Shown here in pieces: positions 55,425-63,971 of a DNA stretch of 64,000 nt. The position numbers and the translations under genes are program-made. Source of the DNA: Alphaproteobacteria bacterium (GTDB lineage: Bacteria; Pseudomonadota; Alphaproteobacteria; UBA8366); assembly GCA_028281325.1 (NCBI GenBank), contig JANQKC010000014.1, positions 87,310 through 151,309 on the forward strand, in the 5' to 3' direction. A model generated the notes under the pieces. It saw only the letters and a list, made by a program, of their open reading frames with translations, did not search any database and had not been told where the DNA came from. How positions within the stretch are numbered: position 1 is the first letter of the stretch; every line of letters starts with the position of its first letter.

Positions 55425-56801
55425 TCAACGGGACTGACCGGTCCACCAGCCGGATTTTTCCTGTTGGCGCAGGATGTCCTTGCGGCGGCGCGACAGCGCA
55501 ACCGCGTCTCCCAATGTCGTGACGCCGCTATCCGCCAACCGTGGAATAAGCCGCGCGAAGACTTCCGCCGTGACCAGGGCGTCGCCAAGAGCGGTATGCC
55601 GGCCCCGAACCCGGACCCCAAGGGATTCCGCCACGCTGTCGAGTTGCAGCGACGGAAGCCCCAGGTCCAAAGCGGCCGTCAGGAGATAGGTGCAGAGAAA
55701 AGGCGGCGGCGACCAATCGATCCCCGCCGCCCGGGTCGCATTCTGCAAATGAGCGATATCGAAACCGACATTATGGCCGACCAGCACGGCGCCATCGCTC
55801 ATCATCCGGAAGTCGGACCAAACCTCGGCGAAATCCGGAGCGCCTTCCACCATATCGTTGGTAATCCCGTGAATCGCCGTCGACCGCGGCGGAATGGGAC
55901 GTCCAGGATGCACGAGACAGTCTATGGTCACCGCGCGATAGATCGTACTTCCCTGCAACCGCACGCCGCCGAGAGAGACGATGGTGTCCACCGCCACGTC
56001 CAGGCCGGTGGTTTCAAGGTCGAATACGACAATGGGCAGCGCCTCGAGCCGGGTGTCGTCGGCCACCGAAGCGATCGGCGGCGGCATTTCAAGCAGATGC
56101 AGGTCGTGGTCGAGCGTCCGCGCCGCCTCACCGTGCGGCGGGTCAAAGGTCAATACCGCCCCCCGCCCACCGTCGACGGCGGCAACCCGGACCGTGAGCG
56201 ACCGGCCATCGACGGTGTCGACGTCGGTGTGAACCGGCACGACCCGCCCTTCCGCAAGGGCGAGCGCCCGTTCGACGCCCGCCGCATCCAACGCGTCGTA
56301 GATGCTCGTGCCGGGCTTCGCGACGTCCGGCCCCAACAACGTCTTCGCCGCCGCATTGATCAGGCTGACGAGGCCGGCGTGATTGATGACGACGATGGCG
56401 TCGGGCAGCGCCGACAAGACGGTTTCCAACTGCCGCGCCGGAATCGACTGTTGCGCCAACCGCCCCCCGATCAAGGAGTCGACCGCGTCGAGCAGGCCCT
56501 GCACTTCCGTCGGGAAATCGCCCGGCAACGGCTGCGGCATGGCGTCCGCCGTATCGGTTTGCATCAGGACGATGAAGCCCCGCAAGCGTTCAAGCGCCCT
56601 GCCGACACGGTCCGCGTGGGAAACGCCGTAAATCAACAGCGGTACGGCAAGCGCCAGCACGAGGACGGCAAGACTGTCGATCACGACCCGCGGGATCAAT
56701 CCGTGCCAACCGGCGCGGCCGTCCGCGATGACCAGGGCGGCGAAGAGGATCGCCAACGCGATCGCCCCGCAAAGCGCCAAATGCCGCCCCCGCCGCTCCA
56801 T
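55425..56801 (-). CDS. Membrane-bound PAS/DEDDh 3'-5' exonuclease (DnaQ-like)
   Basis: A 458-residue protein joining a membrane sensor-like part to a nuclease. Two transmembrane helices lie at about 10-28 and 38-58. Residues about 105-215 are PAS-like (ETVLSALPDAIVVINHAGLVSLINAAAKTLLG). Residues about 255-430 are a DEDDh exonuclease of the DNA polymerase III epsilon type, with VFDLETTGLD (Asp, Glu), HNVGFDIAHL (Asp) and RHTALGDALVTAEVF (His, Asp); all five acidic or His ligands are visible. ATG 56801 has a strong GGAAGGAGG ahead of it. It is downstream of the CBS/DUF294 gene, an association known around acetate-related symporters in Vibrio and Pseudomonas. Its substrate is unknown. Confidence 0.85.
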   Translation of the reverse strand: MERRGRHLALCGAIALAILFAALVIADGRAGWHGLIPRVVIDSLAVLVLALAVPLLIYGVSHADRVGRALERLRGFIVLMQTDTADAMPQPLPGDFPTEVQGLLDAVDSLIGGRLAQQSIPARQLETVLSALPDAIVVINHAGLVSLINAAAKTLLGPDVAKPGTSIYDALDAAGVERALALAEGRVVPVHTDVDTVDGRSLTVRVAAVDGGRGAVLTFDPPHGEAARTLDHDLHLLEMPPPIASVADDTRLEALPIVVFDLETTGLDVAVDTIVSLGGVRLQGSTIYRAVTIDCLVHPGRPIPPRSTAIHGITNDMVEGAPDFAEVWSDFRMMSDGAVLVGHNVGFDIAHLQNATRAAGIDWSPPPFLCTYLLTAALDLGLPSLQLDSVAESLGVRVRGRHTALGDALVTAEVFARLIPRLADSGVTTLGDAVALSRRRKDILRQQEKSGWWTGQSR

Positions 56802-56834
56802 CGGACCTAATCCTCCTTCCGGAAACACATACCC

Positions 56835-58295
56835 CTAGAAGACATCGCCGGTGACCTCCCCCCGCACGCGGTCCAGCAATCGCCGGATCGCTTTGAAGGC
56901 GTCGACCACCTCGTCGCGCTCACGCTCGTTCAGCGTATCGGGATGGACGTAATTCCCGACCTTCCGGCCCTTGTTGAAATCGTCGATCTGCTGGCGCAAC
57001 AAGACGAAGGTGATCTCCTGAAAGGCGTTGGTCAGGTAATCGAACTCCCCCGCGTCCAGGACGCCGGCGTCGTGCAGGCTTTGCAACCGGTCGCATGTCG
57101 ACGTGGCGGCAATGCCCTCACGCAAGGCCAGCAGCCGGATCGATTGCACCAGCGGCAGGGTGCCGCTGTGCTTCATATTGATCGTGCCTTCGTGCTCCGG
57201 ATCGTCTTTTACCGTGATGAACCGTCCGAACCACCCGAGCGGGACGCCATAGTCTTCGTCGTCGCGATACATATCCTTCAGAAAGGACAGGTTTCCCGCC
57301 ACGGCGCCGGTGACGAAGGACCGCAGCTCTGCCGCCAGATCCGGCGCCCCGTAACAGGACCGGAAATCGAAGAATATGTCCGACAGGCGCAGCGCCACCG
57401 TGTTGCGCCGCCGCAGCCAGCCGGCGACCTGCGCCTTCCATTGCGAGATCGTCTTGCGCCAGACCGGGTTCGTCGCCATGACGTATCCGTTGCAATACGG
57501 GAACCCGACCGCGTCCAAGTCGCGGGTCACCCGCTCGGCCAGGTCGATGAACCATGTATCGATCCGCGAATGATCTTCGTCCGGATAGTCATCCAGGATG
57601 AATCCGTTGTCCTGATCGGGATAGAGGAAATTCTCCCCACGGCCGCCGGACCCCATAACGATGAAGGCGAAAGGCACCGGCGGCGCACCCTTTCCTTCCT
57701 CTTCCATGGCGCGCAGGTTCATCTCGACGACACGGCGATGGATATCCCGGTTGATGTGGGTGAGCAGCGACTGGATCGTCGGCACCGGCACCGCGTCGTC
57801 GAACAACTGTTGCGCCAGGTCGACCTGGGCCGACTTGATTTCGCGCATGCCGTCGACCGTCCCTTCCTGGGTCAAACGATCGATCTGCGTGACCATGCGC
57901 GACGACACAGCCGCCAGGGCGGTGTCGAGATGAAGCATTCCCACCGGCTTGCCGGCCGCGTCGACAACCGGCATATGACGCAGCTTGAACCGCCGCATGC
58001 GCGCGATCGCGTGATAGAGATAGTCGTCCTCGGCGATCGTCATCACCGGCGCGGTCATGACATCCTGGACCGGGGTGTCCGAAACCGCTCGGAACGCCAG
58101 CCGGTGCACCACGTCCCGTTCGGTCAGGATGCCGCAAAGCCGCGCGTCCGGGCCCGTCACCAGGGCGGCGGTTACGCCCTTGTCGATAATGTCCGCCACC
58201 ACCGCGGCACTGGGTTTGTCGCCGGCGACAACGACCGGCGCGGCGGCCATATGGTCTCCGACGATCTGGCAGAACACGGCGGTCTGCGACCGCAT
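56835..58295 (-). CDS. CBS-domain/DUF294 putative nucleotidyltransferase
   Basis: A 486-residue protein with a CBS pair (about 15-135: VVADIIDKGVTAALVTGPDARLCGILTERDVV, VQDVMTAPVMTIAEDDYLYHAI, RHMPVVDAAGKPVGML). A DUF294 nucleotidyltransferase domain (about 150-290) follows, with the GSGGRGE and YPDQDNG motifs of GlnD-like enzymes, and a DUF294 C-terminal helical domain. The fold suggests transfer of a nucleotide to a protein or small molecule, controlled by adenine nucleotides at the CBS pair. Its partner is not known. ATG 58295 is 7 bases after the kinase stop; the frame is open upstream into the kinase gene. It is tightly linked to both the kinase and the exonuclease. Confidence 0.86.
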   Translation of the reverse strand: MRSQTAVFCQIVGDHMAAAPVVVAGDKPSAAVVADIIDKGVTAALVTGPDARLCGILTERDVVHRLAFRAVSDTPVQDVMTAPVMTIAEDDYLYHAIARMRRFKLRHMPVVDAAGKPVGMLHLDTALAAVSSRMVTQIDRLTQEGTVDGMREIKSAQVDLAQQLFDDAVPVPTIQSLLTHINRDIHRRVVEMNLRAMEEEGKGAPPVPFAFIVMGSGGRGENFLYPDQDNGFILDDYPDEDHSRIDTWFIDLAERVTRDLDAVGFPYCNGYVMATNPVWRKTISQWKAQVAGWLRRRNTVALRLSDIFFDFRSCYGAPDLAAELRSFVTGAVAGNLSFLKDMYRDDEDYGVPLGWFGRFITVKDDPEHEGTINMKHSGTLPLVQSIRLLALREGIAATSTCDRLQSLHDAGVLDAGEFDYLTNAFQEITFVLLRQQIDDFNKGRKVGNYVHPDTLNERERDEVVDAFKAIRRLLDRVRGEVTGDVF

Positions 58296-58302
58296 GAGGG
58301 TA

Positions 58303-61056
58303 TTATTCACCGGGCACCATGAAGGACGTTCGCGCATAAGGGACGGTAAAGACGAATTTCGCGCCGACGGATTGGTTGCGTTCAACCCAGATGCGCCCGC
58401 CGAAATACTCGACAATCTGCCGGCAAATCGGCAGCCCCAGCCCGGTGCTGACCGGCTTGCTGGTCGCGGTCACATCGGCCTGCTCGAATTTTTCGAAGAT
58501 TCGCTGTTCCGCCCCGGCGGGAATACCGGGACCGTTGTCCTCGACCGCGACCAGCAGGGCCTGCGACGTTTCCCGCACCGCGATCTGTATGCTCGGGTTG
58601 CTGCGGTTGCAGAACTTGACCGCGTTCGACAACAGATTGACGATGACCTGGATGAAGCGGTCCCGGTCGGCGCGCACCCGCCGGAGCTGGGAGGGCAGAT
58701 TGACGTCGAGCTGCATCCGGTTCTCCTGGAGCAGACTGCTGGTCGCCGCGATGGCTTCCTCGATCACCTCTTTCGGATCGATGTCCGATATCTGCCATTC
58801 GCCCCGGCCCGCCTCCAGCTTCGCCAGATCGAGCAACTGATTGATCAGCCGCGTGAGGCGCTCGCTCTCCTTGATGATGATCGTCAGGAACTCCCGGCGT
58901 TCCTCGATCGGCAAATCCGACTCGTCGAACAGGATTTCGCTGAACGACCGGATCGAGGTCAGCGGCGTCCGTAACTCATGGCTGACGGTCGACAGGAAAT
59001 CGTCCTTGAGACGATCGACCTCCTTCAGGCGTTCATTGGCGGCCTGCAGTTCCGCGGAGGCGATCTGCAACTCGCGCGATTTCTGTTCGAGCCGATGGCT
59101 GTACTCGATAACCTGCGACGTCTCGTCCAGGATCTCCATCACTTCGTCGATACTGGCGACTTCTCCTTTGACGACCGACCCGATCATCACGCGCGCCGAC
59201 GCGGCGCCGATCGCGCCCGCCAGGAGCTTTTCCGTGAAATTCAGCAAGGCAGGATCGGCCTCGGTGACTTTCTTCAGGCTTTCGCCGGTTTCTGCCGCGT
59301 AACCGTCGAAGGCGCGATCGGCCTGATCGCGCCCCACGAAACGCACGACCAGGGCATACAGGTCGGAGAATGTGGCGGTGCCGCGCCATAGCCCGGAGCC
59401 CCGGTCGTCATCGGATCGCCGATAGACATCGACAAACAGGGCCGCTTGAATCCTCTCCAACGCCGTCTGCCGGGTCGCCAAGGACACCCCGACATAACCG
59501 CCGATGTTGACCAGCATGCTCCAGAACAGCGCATGCGACAGGTTGTCAAACTCCGAGAGGCCGAACAGCGCATACGGCTTCAGCAATTCGGCACCGAAGG
59601 GACCGGCATCGATGAAGCTGTGGGGGATCCAGCCGGATAGCGCGAGCGAGGGCATCAACAGTGTGTAAATCCACATGGTGAAGCCCAAGCATAGACCGAC
59701 CAGCGCCCCGGCCCGCGTGCCCCCCTTCCAGAGCAGGCCGCCGACGATCGCCGGCGCGAACTGCGCCGCCGCCGCGAAAGACAGCAGGCCGACGGTCGCC
59801 AGCGCATAGGATTCGCCGATGAAACGGAAGTAACCGTAACTGAACAACAGGATGAACAGGATGCTGCCGCGCCGGATCGCCTGCAGCAGGCCGCCAAGGT
59901 CGCCCTTCTCGTTGAGCCGCAACCACGTCAGCCGCAACAGGACCGGCATGACCAAGTCGTTACACACCATCGTGCTGAGCGCGATGGTCGCCACGATCAC
60001 CATCCCCGTCGCGGCCGAGAGTCCCCCGATGAACGCGAACAGCGTCAGCAGTTCCTGCTGCTCATACATCGGCACGGTGAGGACGAAAGTGTCGGCGTCG
60101 ACCGTATCGCCCGAAAACATCAGCAAGCCGCCAAGCGCAATCGGCAGCACGAAGATATTGATGATCAGCAGGTATAACGGAAACAACCAGACCGCCTTGT
60201 TGAGGTGGCGCTCGTCGAGGCTCTCGATCGCGGTGACCTGGAACTGCCGCGGCAGGCATATGATCGCGGCCATGGACAGCAAGGTCATCGTGATCCACTG
60301 ACCATAGGTGCTCGCCGTGCCGAGCGTGATCAGCGAGCCGTACTCGGGCAAGGCCTTGGCCTCCGTGAACAGGTCGCCGAAGCCGTCATACAATCCGAAG
60401 GTCACGAACAAGCCGACCGACAGAAAGGCGACGAGTTTCACGACGGACTCGAACGCAATGGCCACGACCATTCCTTCGTGATGTTCGCTGGCGTCGATAT
60501 GGCGCGTCCCGAACAGGATCGTGAAGATCGCCATTAAGAGCGCCACGTAGAACGCCGTATCGTGCGGAATCGGAACCTCACCCAGGCCGGACGGCATGGC
60601 GATTTCCGGATAGCCGAGCAGCAGATTGAAACTCGTCGACACCGCCTTCAGCTGCAGCGAGATATACGGCATGATCCCGACCACCGCGATGATCGTCACC
60701 AGCCCGCCCAGCAGCGTGCTCTTGCCATAGCGCGACGCGATGAAGTCGGCGATCGACGTGATCCGGTTCTTCTTCGTGATCCGGATGATCTTGCCCAACA
60801 CAAACCACCACAGCACGAAGACCAGCGTCGGCCCCAGATAGATCGGCAGGAAATCCAGCCCGCTGGACGCCGCCCGCCCGACGCTGCCGTAATACGTCCA
60901 GGACGTGCAGTAGACCGCGATGGAAAGTGCGTAGATATAGGGGTTGTTGGCGAGGCTGCGGCCTTCGTCGGCCCGCTTGTCGCCGTAATAGGCGATCGCG
61001 AACAGCAGACACAGATACCCGAAGGAGACGAGAAGAACGACCCAGCCCTGAAGCAT
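58303..61056 (-). CDS. Sodium/solute symporter-histidine kinase fusion (CbrA/CrbS type)
   Basis: A 917-residue sensor kinase whose N-terminal 490 residues are a 13-helix SSS-family symporter (IYALSIAVYCTSWTYYGSVGRA near 41, KNRITSIADFIASRYG near 97, FQVTAIESLDERHLNKAVWLFP in the middle). A linker helix and coiled coil follow (ASAELQAANERLKEVDRLKDDFLS), then a DHp domain with phospho-accepting His693 in STVSHELRTPLTSIRSF and a catalytic domain with N-box LSNAVKF, EDNGPGIP and STGLGLPIC. CrbS, of the same architecture, responds to acetate and controls acetyl-CoA synthetase. The solute here is inferred only. It starts 2 bases after the small TM gene. Confidence 0.92.
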   Translation of the reverse strand: MLQGWVVLLVSFGYLCLLFAIAYYGDKRADEGRSLANNPYIYALSIAVYCTSWTYYGSVGRAASSGLDFLPIYLGPTLVFVLWWFVLGKIIRITKKNRITSIADFIASRYGKSTLLGGLVTIIAVVGIMPYISLQLKAVSTSFNLLLGYPEIAMPSGLGEVPIPHDTAFYVALLMAIFTILFGTRHIDASEHHEGMVVAIAFESVVKLVAFLSVGLFVTFGLYDGFGDLFTEAKALPEYGSLITLGTASTYGQWITMTLLSMAAIICLPRQFQVTAIESLDERHLNKAVWLFPLYLLIINIFVLPIALGGLLMFSGDTVDADTFVLTVPMYEQQELLTLFAFIGGLSAATGMVIVATIALSTMVCNDLVMPVLLRLTWLRLNEKGDLGGLLQAIRRGSILFILLFSYGYFRFIGESYALATVGLLSFAAAAQFAPAIVGGLLWKGGTRAGALVGLCLGFTMWIYTLLMPSLALSGWIPHSFIDAGPFGAELLKPYALFGLSEFDNLSHALFWSMLVNIGGYVGVSLATRQTALERIQAALFVDVYRRSDDDRGSGLWRGTATFSDLYALVVRFVGRDQADRAFDGYAAETGESLKKVTEADPALLNFTEKLLAGAIGAASARVMIGSVVKGEVASIDEVMEILDETSQVIEYSHRLEQKSRELQIASAELQAANERLKEVDRLKDDFLSTVSHELRTPLTSIRSFSEILFDESDLPIEERREFLTIIIKESERLTRLINQLLDLAKLEAGRGEWQISDIDPKEVIEEAIAATSSLLQENRMQLDVNLPSQLRRVRADRDRFIQVIVNLLSNAVKFCNRSNPSIQIAVRETSQALLVAVEDNGPGIPAGAEQRIFEKFEQADVTATSKPVSTGLGLPICRQIVEYFGGRIWVERNQSVGAKFVFTVPYARTSFMVPGE

Positions 61057-61058
61057 CG

Positions 61059-61301
61059 TCAGCCGTCCCTTGTGCGGCCGATACGGGGGCGCATGCCCGG
61101 CGACCGTCCGCGGCGATTCACGATCATCGCAACGAGCGCGATAAGCAACGCCCAGCTTGCGAAGATGTAGAGATAGAGAGCGGGAAACCCGAAAAGCGTG
61201 GCGTCAACGCCGAACAGCAGCAGCATCGGCGGGTTGAACAACAGCACGCCCAGGGCGAAAAGCGCCAAAAGGCTTTCGCTGACCGGCCGTCGTTGATTCA
61301 T
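61059..61301 (-). CDS. Small two-TM membrane protein, symporter-kinase partner
   Basis: An 80-residue protein with two hydrophobic helices (about 9-27 and 41-62: LLALFALGVLLFNPPMLLLFG and LYIFASWALLIALVAMIV) and a basic tail. It resembles the small integral proteins (DUF4212/DUF485-like) that are encoded directly before SSS-family symporters and probably act as their accessory subunit. Only 2 bases separate its stop from the kinase start, so the two are translated together. It may help assemble or tune the sensor transporter domain. Confidence 0.7.
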   Translation of the reverse strand: MNQRRPVSESLLALFALGVLLFNPPMLLLFGVDATLFGFPALYLYIFASWALLIALVAMIVNRRGRSPGMRPRIGRTRDG

Positions 61302-61378: not shown

Positions 61379-61774
61379 TCATCTAGCCTGCCCTGCCGCC
61401 GGCTGGGCGAGGTTGAGAATTCTCCCCACGCGGAACCGCACATCGCGGGTCGAGAACGGCTTGACGATGTAATCGTCCGCCCCGGCGGACAAACCCCGCG
61501 CGCGTTCTTCGTCCCGGCTTTTCGCCGTCAACATGATGATCTTGACGTCATCCCAGGCCGCGTTGGCGCGAATCGCGCGGCAGACGCTGAAGCCGTCCCG
61601 TTTGGGCATCATGACGTCAAGCAGCACCAAGTCCGGCGCCTGGCGTCCGATCTCCTGCAACGCAGCATCGCCATCCTCCGCGATGCGAACATCCAGGTCC
61701 ATCTGCTTCATCAAGAACTCGAGCGATAGAACGATGTTCGGTTCATCGTCCACCACCAGTACCGATTGCGTCAT
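61379..61774 (-). CDS. Single-domain response regulator
   Basis: A 131-residue CheY-like receiver with no output domain. The acidic pocket Asp9-Asp10-Glu11 (VVDDEPN), phospho-acceptor Asp53 (LLDVMMPKRDG), Thr83 (IMLTAKS) and Lys105 (IVKPFS) are all present. ATG 61774 has GGGAGGAG 6-7 bases upstream; the frame is open for 22 more codons without such a site. It lies 77 bases upstream of the small TM gene, on the kinase strand. CrbR-type partners normally carry a DNA-binding domain, which is lacking here, so its output must be through another protein. Confidence 0.93.
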   Translation of the reverse strand: MTQSVLVVDDEPNIVLSLEFLMKQMDLDVRIAEDGDAALQEIGRQAPDLVLLDVMMPKRDGFSVCRAIRANAAWDDVKIIMLTAKSRDEERARGLSAGADDYIVKPFSTRDVRFRVGRILNLAQPAAGQAR

Positions 61775-61959: not shown

Positions 61960-61986
61960 AAAAGGGCTCCCCACGCGGGGAAGCCC
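61960..61986 (-). terminator. Intrinsic terminator after the 28-residue membrane protein gene
   Basis: On the minus strand GGGCTTCCCC, loop GCGT, GGGGAGCCC then TTTTGCG. The stem has one bulged base and a T4 tail. It is 29 bases past the stop of the small gene and separates it from the response regulator gene. Confidence 0.75.
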
Positions 61987-62014: not shown

Positions 62015-62101
62015 TCAGCTCGTCATGATGCCGACGATCATCAACACGACAAACGCGCCAATCAGGGCAAGCAATGCTTTGTTCTTCAATACGGCGGCCA
62101 T
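62015..62101 (-). CDS. 28-residue single-TM small protein
   Basis: A short gene with its own strong signals. ATG at 62101 is preceded by GAGGAG 7 bases upstream and ends at TGA 62015-62017, just before an intrinsic terminator. The peptide begins MAAVLKNKALLALIGAFVV and continues with LMIVGIMTS: a basic N-terminus and one hydrophobic helix (residues 8-26). This is a typical small inner-membrane protein. It lies between the transcription factor and the response regulator, as a separate transcription unit. A paired TTCACA repeat found also before the transcription factor lies 150-164 bases upstream. Function unknown; a modulator of the symporter-kinase is a reasonable guess. Confidence 0.65.
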   Translation of the reverse strand: MAAVLKNKALLALIGAFVVLMIVGIMTS

Positions 62102-62250: not shown

Positions 62251-62265
62251 TGTGAATTTTGTGAA
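62251..62265 (-). promoter_or_regulatory. TTCACA-N3-TTCACA repeat upstream of the small TM gene
   Basis: On the minus strand TTCACA-AAA-TTCACA, with a 9-base period, lies between the regulator stop and the small gene. The perfect hairpin GTCGTCGA-AA-TCGACGAC (62233-62250) lies right beside it. The same repeat, with the same spacing, is found before the transcription factor gene (63926-63940). It is a candidate operator for that factor. Confidence 0.45.
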
Positions 62266-62297: not shown

Positions 62298-63902
62298 TTA
62301 CACGGCCGCCGCCGTCGCCGCGCCCTCTTCGGCCGGCGCCGACCGCAGAACCGGCGGATGGGCGCGCTGGCCGCAATCGTCGCGATCGCAAACACGGCAG
62401 GTAACGCCGACCGGAACGATGGCGGCGTCCGACGCCAGGTCCATACCGTCGCTGTAGGCAAACCTGTCGGCATGCGCCACATCGCAACCGATCGCGACGG
62501 CGAAATGCCGCAATGACGATGGCCCGCCGATGGCCGGCTTCGACACCGTTCGCGCAACGGTAAAGAAGGTCGACCCGTCGGGCATGCGTTCGACCTGCCG
62601 GCTGATCTGACCGGGCGACATGAAGGCCGCATGAAGGATAGCGCGAGGACACACACCGCCGTAGCGCGGAATCCGAAGACCCGAGATCGAGAACCGCTTG
62701 CAGATGTTGCCGGCGATATCGACTTTGACGAAATGCAACGGCACGCCGGTCGCGCCCGGACGCTGCAAGGTCGTCAGGCGGTGACACACTTGTTCGACGC
62801 TGGCCTGAAACCGATCCTGAAGCCGCTTGACGTCATAGCGTCCTTCCTCCGCCGCGGACAGGAACCCATCGTAAGGCATGAGAACGGCGCCCGCGAAATA
62901 CGCGGCCAACGCCCTGCGGCATAGCTGAATCGCCGCGTCGCCGTCGAGCGCGCCTTCGGACGCGCAGGCGTCAATCGCATCGCCGAATGCCGACAGGCCG
63001 ACCTGTTTCGCGAGTTGGAACAACCGGCTTGCCGGCGACAGCGATTCAACCAGATACAGAGTGCCCGTCTCGGCATCGAACCGCGCCAGCGACGATTGCC
63101 CCGTCTCGGCCGGCATTGTTCGCACGGTAACGCCATAATGGTCGGACAATCGTTCGACCATGCCCGCTTGCGAGTCGTAATCGCTCAATCCGGCGGCTTG
63201 ACGGGCATCCTCCGCCGCCGCTTCCAGGGACGCGAAGTGGTTCAGTCGATCTTGAACGAAGTCGGTGACCTGTTCCTCCGGCGACCGCGAACCGCCCATG
63301 CCCGCGTGATCGCCGCCGGAACTCAACGACAGCATCCGGCCGATGATTTCGGCCAGCCGTTCGCTTTCGCGCACGACAATGCCGGCAAAACGCTGCTGAT
63401 CTTCCGGCTCCAGGTCCACGTGGTCATGCAGGATTTCGGCGAAGGATCGGATCGGCGTCAGCGCGCTTCGCAATTCATAGGCCGATGTCGACAGGAAATC
63501 GTCATCTGTCATACGCTCGCGCAACCATTCCACATCCTCGCGCGTGCGCCGGAACACGCGGTAGAAATCCAGCAACGCCCGCCCGGCCGACGGCGTGACA
63601 TTGACGATGTCCCGCAAGTCGCCGCGCGTGACGCCGCATTCGCGGAATACCGGATCGCCGAACATTTCCATCAGATCGACAAGCAATCGCGCGTCGTCAT
63701 CCTGCGTCAGCATGTCCGGACTGATGTCGAAGGCGTCCGCGGTCCGTTCCAACAACCGCAGCGTCATCGGCCGTTGGTTCCTTTCGATCATGTTGAGGTA
63801 ACTGGGCGAAATGCCGAGGTCTTTCGCCAGCGCAACCTGGGTTACGCCGGTCTCGCGCCGGATCCGGCGCAGCTTGTTTCCCAACCAGATGCTGTTCGCC
63901 AT
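62298..63902 (-). CDS. ScfR-family transcriptional regulator with inserted pseudo-histidine-kinase DHp domain
   Basis: A 534-residue regulator. Residues about 6-62 are an XRE-type helix-turn-helix (LRRIRRETGVTQVALAKDLGISPSYLNMIERNQRPMT). Residues about 250-345 are the IrrE/peptidase-like part without an HExxH zinc site. Residues about 375-520 are the ScfR C-terminal acyl-CoA-sensing domain, ending in the Cys cluster CRVCDRDDCGQRAHPPV (Cys502, 505, 510). This is the family of RamB, PrpC-type and PccR regulators of acetate and propionate use. Unusually, residues 134-195 (DDFLSTSAYELRSALTPIRSF and on) align with the DHp domain of the neighbouring kinase, with Tyr142 in place of the phospho-His. 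ATG 63902 is preferred over TTG 63923. Confidence 0.85.
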   Translation of the reverse strand: MANSIWLGNKLRRIRRETGVTQVALAKDLGISPSYLNMIERNQRPMTLRLLERTADAFDISPDMLTQDDDARLLVDLMEMFGDPVFRECGVTRGDLRDIVNVTPSAGRALLDFYRVFRRTREDVEWLRERMTDDDFLSTSAYELRSALTPIRSFAEILHDHVDLEPEDQQRFAGIVVRESERLAEIIGRMLSLSSGGDHAGMGGSRSPEEQVTDFVQDRLNHFASLEAAAEDARQAAGLSDYDSQAGMVERLSDHYGVTVRTMPAETGQSSLARFDAETGTLYLVESLSPASRLFQLAKQVGLSAFGDAIDACASEGALDGDAAIQLCRRALAAYFAGAVLMPYDGFLSAAEEGRYDVKRLQDRFQASVEQVCHRLTTLQRPGATGVPLHFVKVDIAGNICKRFSISGLRIPRYGGVCPRAILHAAFMSPGQISRQVERMPDGSTFFTVARTVSKPAIGGPSSLRHFAVAIGCDVAHADRFAYSDGMDLASDAAIVPVGVTCRVCDRDDCGQRAHPPVLRSAPAEEGAATAAAV

Positions 63903-63925: not shown

Positions 63926-63971
63926 TTCACAATGTTCACAACCTAACAGTGTTTCCCGTTAGGTGTTCACA
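63926..63971. promoter_or_regulatory. Repeat cluster before the ScfR-type regulator (probable autoregulatory operator)
   Basis: TTCACA at 63926-63931 and 63935-63940 (9-base period) and again at 63966-63971. Between them lies the inverted repeat CCTAAC (63942-63947)/GTTAGG (63958-63963). This is immediately upstream of the regulator start on the minus strand, in an AT-richer patch. ScfR-type regulators commonly control their own gene. Confidence 0.5.

Follow-up and report, generated by a model that had tools for sequence, protein, structure and literature searches.

The window analysed here, a single stretch of alphaproteobacterial DNA of 64,000 nucleotides, contains, at its right end, genes for a transcription factor of the ScfR type (P0001), a stand-alone receiver (P0003), and a membrane histidine kinase (P0002), all on the minus strand. 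The features of the locus are as follows.

58303..61056, minus strand: SLC5-type membrane histidine kinase P0002, 917 aa, with HisKA at residues 684-750 and HATPase at 797-908 (Pfam)
58807..59007, minus strand: DHp domain of kinase P0002, residues 684-750, with His693 (Pfam)
61059..61301, minus strand: predicted membrane protein of 80 aa in the interval between the receiver and kinase genes (open reading frame)
61379..61774, minus strand: stand-alone receiver P0003, 131 aa, with Asp53, Thr83, and Lys105 intact (Pfam Response_reg)
61960..61986, minus strand: terminator-like hairpin with a T-run after it, separating the genes for the 28-aa peptide and the receiver (read from the sequence)
62015..62101, minus strand: predicted membrane peptide of 28 aa, MAAVLKNKALLALIGAFVVLMIVGIMTS (read from the sequence)
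62251..62265, no strand assigned: candidate operator TTCACAAAATTCACA, downstream of the regulator gene and upstream of the 28-aa peptide gene
62298..63902, minus strand: DHp-bearing ScfR-type transcription factor P0001, 534 aa (translation; Pfam HTH_31, HisKA, Peptidase_M78, ScfRs)
62325..62771, minus strand: ScfR C-terminal domain of P0001, residues 378-526 (Pfam, 181 bits)
62772..63143, minus strand: IrrE/M78-like (acyl-CoA pocket) domain of P0001, residues 254-377 (Pfam; Foldseek)
63318..63503, minus strand: DHp (HisKA) domain of P0001, residues 134-195 (Pfam, 39.7 bits; hairpin helices; omega 0.05)
63477-63479, minus strand: acceptor position of the P0001 DHp, Tyr142
63711..63887, minus strand: HTH (XRE-type) DNA-binding domain of P0001, residues 6-64 (Pfam; omega 0.035)
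63926..63940, no strand assigned: candidate operator TTCACAATGTTCACA in the interval between the regulator and symporter genes, 24 bp upstream of the regulator

In its N-terminal half, P0002 presumably resembles the SLC5 symporter portion of CbrA/CrbS, and this portion of the protein matches PDB 10ed_A, a solved histidine kinase, with an E of 1e-72. The receiver is conserved at its functional positions, with Asp and Lys-Pro present in 53 of 53 relatives and Thr or Ser likewise in 53 of 53. No match to the 80-aa membrane protein at 61059..61301 was found in NCBIfam, and the 28-aa peptide keeps 27 of its 28 residues in the sister species (G001). In the genus of the window, 523 bp and a terminator-like hairpin separate the receiver and regulator genes, so that the tight coupling of other lineages is relaxed here; a similar hairpin is present at locus L114. 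Downstream of the kinase on the same strand, at 55425-58415, are two further genes, one for a protein that resembles CBS-domain proteins through weak matches only and one for a DEDD exonuclease-like protein.

The domains of P0001 follow the order HTH, M78-like, and ScfR, each exceeding its Pfam cut-off, and the protein contains the Fe-S cysteines Cys418 and Cys502-X2-Cys505-X4-Cys510, which are nearly invariant among homologues. The C-X2-C-X4-C Fe-S motif has been described for PrpR (PMC6765138). The body of P0001 resembles MtPrpR (Foldseek against 6cyy, E 2e-25), PrpR being the closest solved structure and the best phmmer and Foldseek match. By domain content, P0001 is an acyl-CoA/Fe-S regulator of the ScfR (PrpR/RamB/PccR) family, with acyl-CoA binding predicted from the similarity of its fold to PrpR. 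The ScfR/IsaR regulators MtPrpR, RamB, and PccR share the HTH, the IrrE/M78-like CoA-pocket and ScfR domains, and the C-X2-C-X4-C motif; unlike P0001, they are described without a DHp domain.

Pfam HisKA, for which the curated cut-off is 26.9 bits, matches residues 135-195 of P0001 at 39.7 bits (E 5e-10). In the AlphaFold model (mean pLDDT 87), helices 135-160 and 166-195 are joined by a short loop, with the HTH on one side and the body on the other. The pLDDT of the hairpin helices is about 70-90, and the DHp fragment modelled alone gives the same two helices at low confidence (58.9). A Pfam match to a HATPase/CA domain was not found in P0001, and the acceptor His of HisKA, His693 in the kinase, is replaced by Tyr142. 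A preliminary description of this locus had proposed a DHp domain with Tyr at the phospho-His position and no ATPase domain, and the profile match, the modelled two-helix hairpin, and the residue alignment all agree with it. P0001 is thus neither a histidine kinase, for want of a HATPase/CA domain, nor a phosphotransferase of the ChpT/Spo0B type, for want of the His. ChpT and Spo0B are DHp folds that serve receivers without autokinase activity of their own. Both keep the His and a CA-like domain and do not bind DNA (the ChpT histidine phosphotransferase is described in PMC3433190), whereas P0001 is without the His.

The DHp domain of P0001 is markedly similar to that of the neighboring kinase, encoded 1.2 kb away. 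BLASTP aligns P0001 and P0002 with 38 of 81 identities (E 2e-16). The aligned stretch takes in DDFLST, the H-box region, and (V/I)(R/K)ESERL, and without gaps, residues 131-196 are 48% identical to the kinase DHp, much as first noticed. Within the whole genome, P0002 is the best DHp match to the segment at 58 bits and the next histidine kinase reaches 26 bits, which means that the likeness exceeds generic HisKA similarity. The preliminary description had read this likeness as a copy taken from the adjacent kinase, which as a local event is contradicted by the family as a whole. In a tree of 133 DHp sequences, weakly resolved on its 71 columns, the regulator DHps have a single origin, as one branch sets all 59 of them apart (SH-aLRT 99); the linked kinases adjoin them, and other kinases lie outside (support 62). 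A tree with the linked kinases kept together is not rejected (AU p 0.87), and the nesting of regulator DHps within the kinase family, seen in a quick tree, was dropped because the tree holding the kinases together is better. The linked kinases are plausibly the sister of the regulator DHp clade. Mean DHp identity is 0.32 between a regulator and its own kinase and 0.31 between a regulator and the kinases of other genomes, and repeated local copying therefore does not fit. Recent gene conversion from the local kinase is likewise rejected, as the regulator DHps form one clade and P0002 ranks only third among kinases for the DHp of the window regulator. One ancient capture of a DHp from the linked-kinase family fits these comparisons.

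DHp-bearing ScfR regulators are present in 53 genomes from 23 families within a sample of 387 alphaproteobacterial genomes, and 43 loci, partly from genomes already counted, came from scanning named genomes. An earlier phylum sample, with only DHp-less ScfRs outside the class, had suggested restriction to Alphaproteobacteria; this is overturned by loci in the Burkholderiales (Polaromonas, Zeimonas arvi, Lautropia, and Rubrivivax). End-to-end alignment shows the DHp as a clean insert of ~63 aa that is missing from paralogous ScfRs of the same genomes. The segments of relatives are often below detection by Pfam HisKA, with 29 of 49 matching at E up to 1. In 44 of 60 loci, the regulator gene is followed immediately by the receiver gene in the same orientation and then by the kinase gene, often with overlapping frames. 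The insert is conserved among homologues (91 distinct sequences) and co-occurs with the SLC5-type kinase, linked or on another contig, in 53 of 53 genomes; the kinase has a match in at least 11 of the 334 genomes without a DHp-ScfR, a lower bound at the threshold used. Kinase and stand-alone receiver are also found without the DHp regulator, so the pair does not depend on the regulator and the receiver has other possible outputs. At loci L122-L130, an SLC5-type kinase accompanies a stand-alone receiver with no DHp regulator, sometimes with one gene between. The regulators at loci L109-L113 (family f24) are shortened or diverged, with open frames of 287-483 aa that keep the DHp and its His, and their Fe-S/acyl-CoA part may be altered. 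In Paracoccus, the ScfR/IsaR protein Pden_1785 was remarked on as standing beside a two-component system but was not itself studied (PMC10370305). No description of a DHp-bearing ScfR was found in the literature searched, though an earlier mention may exist; the family is widespread and conserved, apparently undescribed so far, and the window shows its Tyr variant.

Conservation was counted over 91 distinct DHp segments of regulators, with positions numbered relative to the acceptor (0). The acceptor site is His in 79, Phe in 5, Tyr in 3, Gln in 2, and Asn in 2, with Tyr confined to the genus of the window and one other genome; the term pseudo-DHp, used at first for this domain, suits the window protein and not the family. 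Glu +1, a basic residue at +3, and Pro +5 are kept in 12, 9, and 0 of the 91 regulators and in 53 of 53 linked kinases, where SHE.RTP is invariant (53/53). These three positions are needed only or mainly for autokinase activity (PMC3510030). At +4, where Thr or Asn is required for phosphatase activity (PMC3510030), 88 of the 91 regulators have Thr, Ser, or Asn, Ser being the residue in 25, the window included. Further along the helix, Arg +10 is found in 82, Ser +11 in 88, Glu +14 in 82, and Ile +15 in all 91. With an entropy of about 3 bits, +1 and +5 rank with the most variable positions, and such variability in its neighbors indicates that the His is kept by selection in most lineages. In complexes of HisKA with receivers, positions 0, +4, +7, +8, +11, +12, and +15 face the receiver. 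These are conserved or conservatively replaced in the regulators, +12 excepted. The latter is a kinase specificity position, an invariant Phe in the linked kinases, and its variability in the regulators suggests that the docking mode may differ. Judged from the alignment, the receiver-facing stripe is kept and the autokinase-only positions are mostly lost in the regulators.

On the regulator tree, which covers 59 of the first 60 loci, omits the DHp columns, and does not contain either Asn sequence, the His has been lost three times: to Tyr in the genus of the window, to Phe or Tyr in a second clade, and to Gln in a third. In the lineages with Phe, with Gln, and with the Tyr of L103, the kinase and receiver genes stand displaced from the regulator or have no linkage to it. 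A tie between loss of His and loss of linkage was considered, as two of the three loss events have displaced kinase genes, and was set aside because independent pairs are not significant. Between the window and its sister species, the regulators are 89% identical, and dN/dS is 0.05 for the DHp (a value that rests on small counts, with 6.5 nonsynonymous changes), 0.035 for the HTH, 0.17 for the linker, 0.12 for the M78-like domain, and 0.09 for the ScfR domain. The Tyr form of the DHp is under strong purifying selection and is not a decaying domain. A vestigial domain is rejected by the omega of 0.05 together with the conserved stripe.

Candidate operators point to what the regulator may control. 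By exact-match search, TTCACANNNTTCACA has exactly two sites in the 5.1-Mb genome, 63926-63940 and 62251-62265. It stands at the same two places and nowhere else in the sister species, where the spacer differs. Several other lineages have less exact versions close to the start codon, with a mean best mismatch of 3.3 compared with 4.0 for shuffled sequences. From this distribution, TTCACANNNTTCACA is a likely operator of P0001, which probably acts on its own gene, on that of the divergent SSS sodium/solute symporter, and on that of the 28-aa membrane peptide. The symporter gene beside the regulator starts at about 64101, outside the window (L121:9411-11414). In other lineages, the divergent neighbor is a LivK/UrtA-like ABC uptake operon in 39 of 60 loci, and malonyl-CoA synthase is found beside the regulator in eight. 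Given these uptake-type divergent neighbors, the system probably governs the import of a carboxylate or a similar compound.

We propose, from the comparisons above, that the most economical role of the P0001 DHp is as a docking site for the stand-alone receiver. The DHp was inserted once, long ago, into an ScfR protein between its DNA-binding head and ligand-binding body. Because the receiver of this two-component system lacks an output domain of its own, P0001 would act on DNA in its place. The SLC5-type kinase would phosphorylate the receiver, which would dock on the P0001 DHp as it would on the kinase and so change how the HTH domains are spaced or how they oligomerise. In this way, P0001 may integrate an external or transport signal, arriving through the kinase, with internal acyl-CoA bound in the ScfR pocket. 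That P0001 is the output of the kinase-receiver pair by way of docking on its DHp seems to us somewhat probable; we infer the docking, its phospho-dependence, and the direction of regulation. In relatives that have His with Thr, Ser, or Asn at +4, docking is perhaps joined by phosphotransfer or dephosphorylation. In the genus of the window, the Tyr acceptor means that readout must do without His phosphotransfer and may resemble that of DivL and DivK. DivL, a Caulobacter pseudokinase with Tyr550, senses DivK~P, a stand-alone receiver, by docking with no phosphotransfer, and it binds DivK~P less well when Arg +3, Thr +7, or Tyr +12 is changed (PMC4211667). P0001 has Tyr142, Arg145, Thr149, and Phe154 where DivL has Tyr550, Arg553, Thr557, and Tyr562. 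Since the Tyr142 form shares these residues and DivL docks DivK~P, the window protein probably reads the phosphorylated receiver by docking. The likeness, of Tyr site, Arg +3, Thr +7, and aromatic +12, is one of mode of action and not of descent: DivL, a pseudokinase within the cell-cycle network, has the architecture PAS-DHp-CA, whereas P0001 holds a DHp without CA inside a DNA-binding protein.

Two rival readings also involve the receiver. In a phosphorelay, the phosphoryl group would move from the receiver to the His in the DHp of the regulator, as it does from Spo0F to Spo0B, the His~P form being active or inactive and the Tyr genus a derived loss. The His is retained in 79 of 91 sequences although its neighbors vary freely, the autokinase residues are lost as expected if the receiver rather than ATP were the phosphoryl source, and the receiver is phosphorylatable in all relatives (53/53). 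However, the independent losses of His and the purifying selection on the Tyr form speak for a module that works without it, and known DHp-type phosphotransferases pass the phosphoryl group to a second receiver, none of which is linked here. A relay of the His-Asp-His type with a transcription factor as its last member, and with the Tyr lineage a natural conversion to a non-phosphorylated DivL-like readout, is possible, if doubtful. Loss of the His would be tolerated by a phosphatase or sink, in which the DHp dephosphorylates the receiver through +4 and the acyl-CoA state of P0001 feeds back on the two-component system, with transcription control otherwise independent. The residue pattern is near that of kinase-minus/phosphatase-plus variants (PMC3510030), for which Glu +1 is dispensable, Thr or Asn at +4 essential, and His helpful and dispensable. 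Yet Ser at +4, of doubtful competence, is common (25/91, including the window), Pro +5, replacement of which lowered CrdS phosphatase activity, is absent in 91 of 91, and the pathway would be left with no output, since none other is known for the receiver. We regard such a role as unlikely.

DHp domains dimerise and XRE regulators need dimers, which would suit a mere dimerisation spacer between HTH and body, a vestigial domain being the other such reading; but the outward H, T/S/N, R, and S are unexpectedly fixed across the 91 distinct sequences, linkage to kinase and receiver is near-constant, omega is 0.05 in the Tyr form, and paralogous ScfRs manage without a DHp, leaving a spacer or vestige very unlikely. 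The regulator and kinase DHps belong to the same family and their genes are linked, and a mixed four-helix bundle of the two, as proposed for RetS/GacS, might tether P0001 to the membrane or control the kinase. Mixed helices of this kind had been suggested in the preliminary description and are argued against by the C-terminal half of helix 2 (184-196), a part of the dimer core that leads to the CA domain in kinases, which has diverged from the kinase to mostly 2-20% identity while the outward His stripe is kept. The identity of own pairs, moreover, hardly exceeds that of mismatched pairs, and we consider a mixed bundle highly improbable.

Among known systems, CrbS/R, CbrA/B, and RpuS/R (SLC5/STAC) have the same class of symporter-fused kinase as P0002. 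Those systems control genes for the uptake or use of carboxylates or amino acids (PMC9100948, PMC7918813). The response regulators of these systems have output domains of the LuxR or sigma-54 kind, whereas here the receiver stands alone and the output is apparently the DHp-ScfR. This arrangement suggests another route from an output-less receiver to transcription, with the docking domain of the kinase placed inside the regulator. If true, acyl-CoA/Fe-S sensing and two-component signalling would be merged in one DNA-binding protein, and a class of SLC5-type kinases present in Alpha- and Betaproteobacteria would gain its missing output. The natural series of His, Tyr, Phe, Gln, and Asn at one site also asks whether a docking signal needs phosphotransfer. 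The other loci at which the His is lost are L092, L097, L100, L105, and L107 (Phe), L103 (Tyr), L091 and L093 (Gln), and L197 and L198 (Asn).
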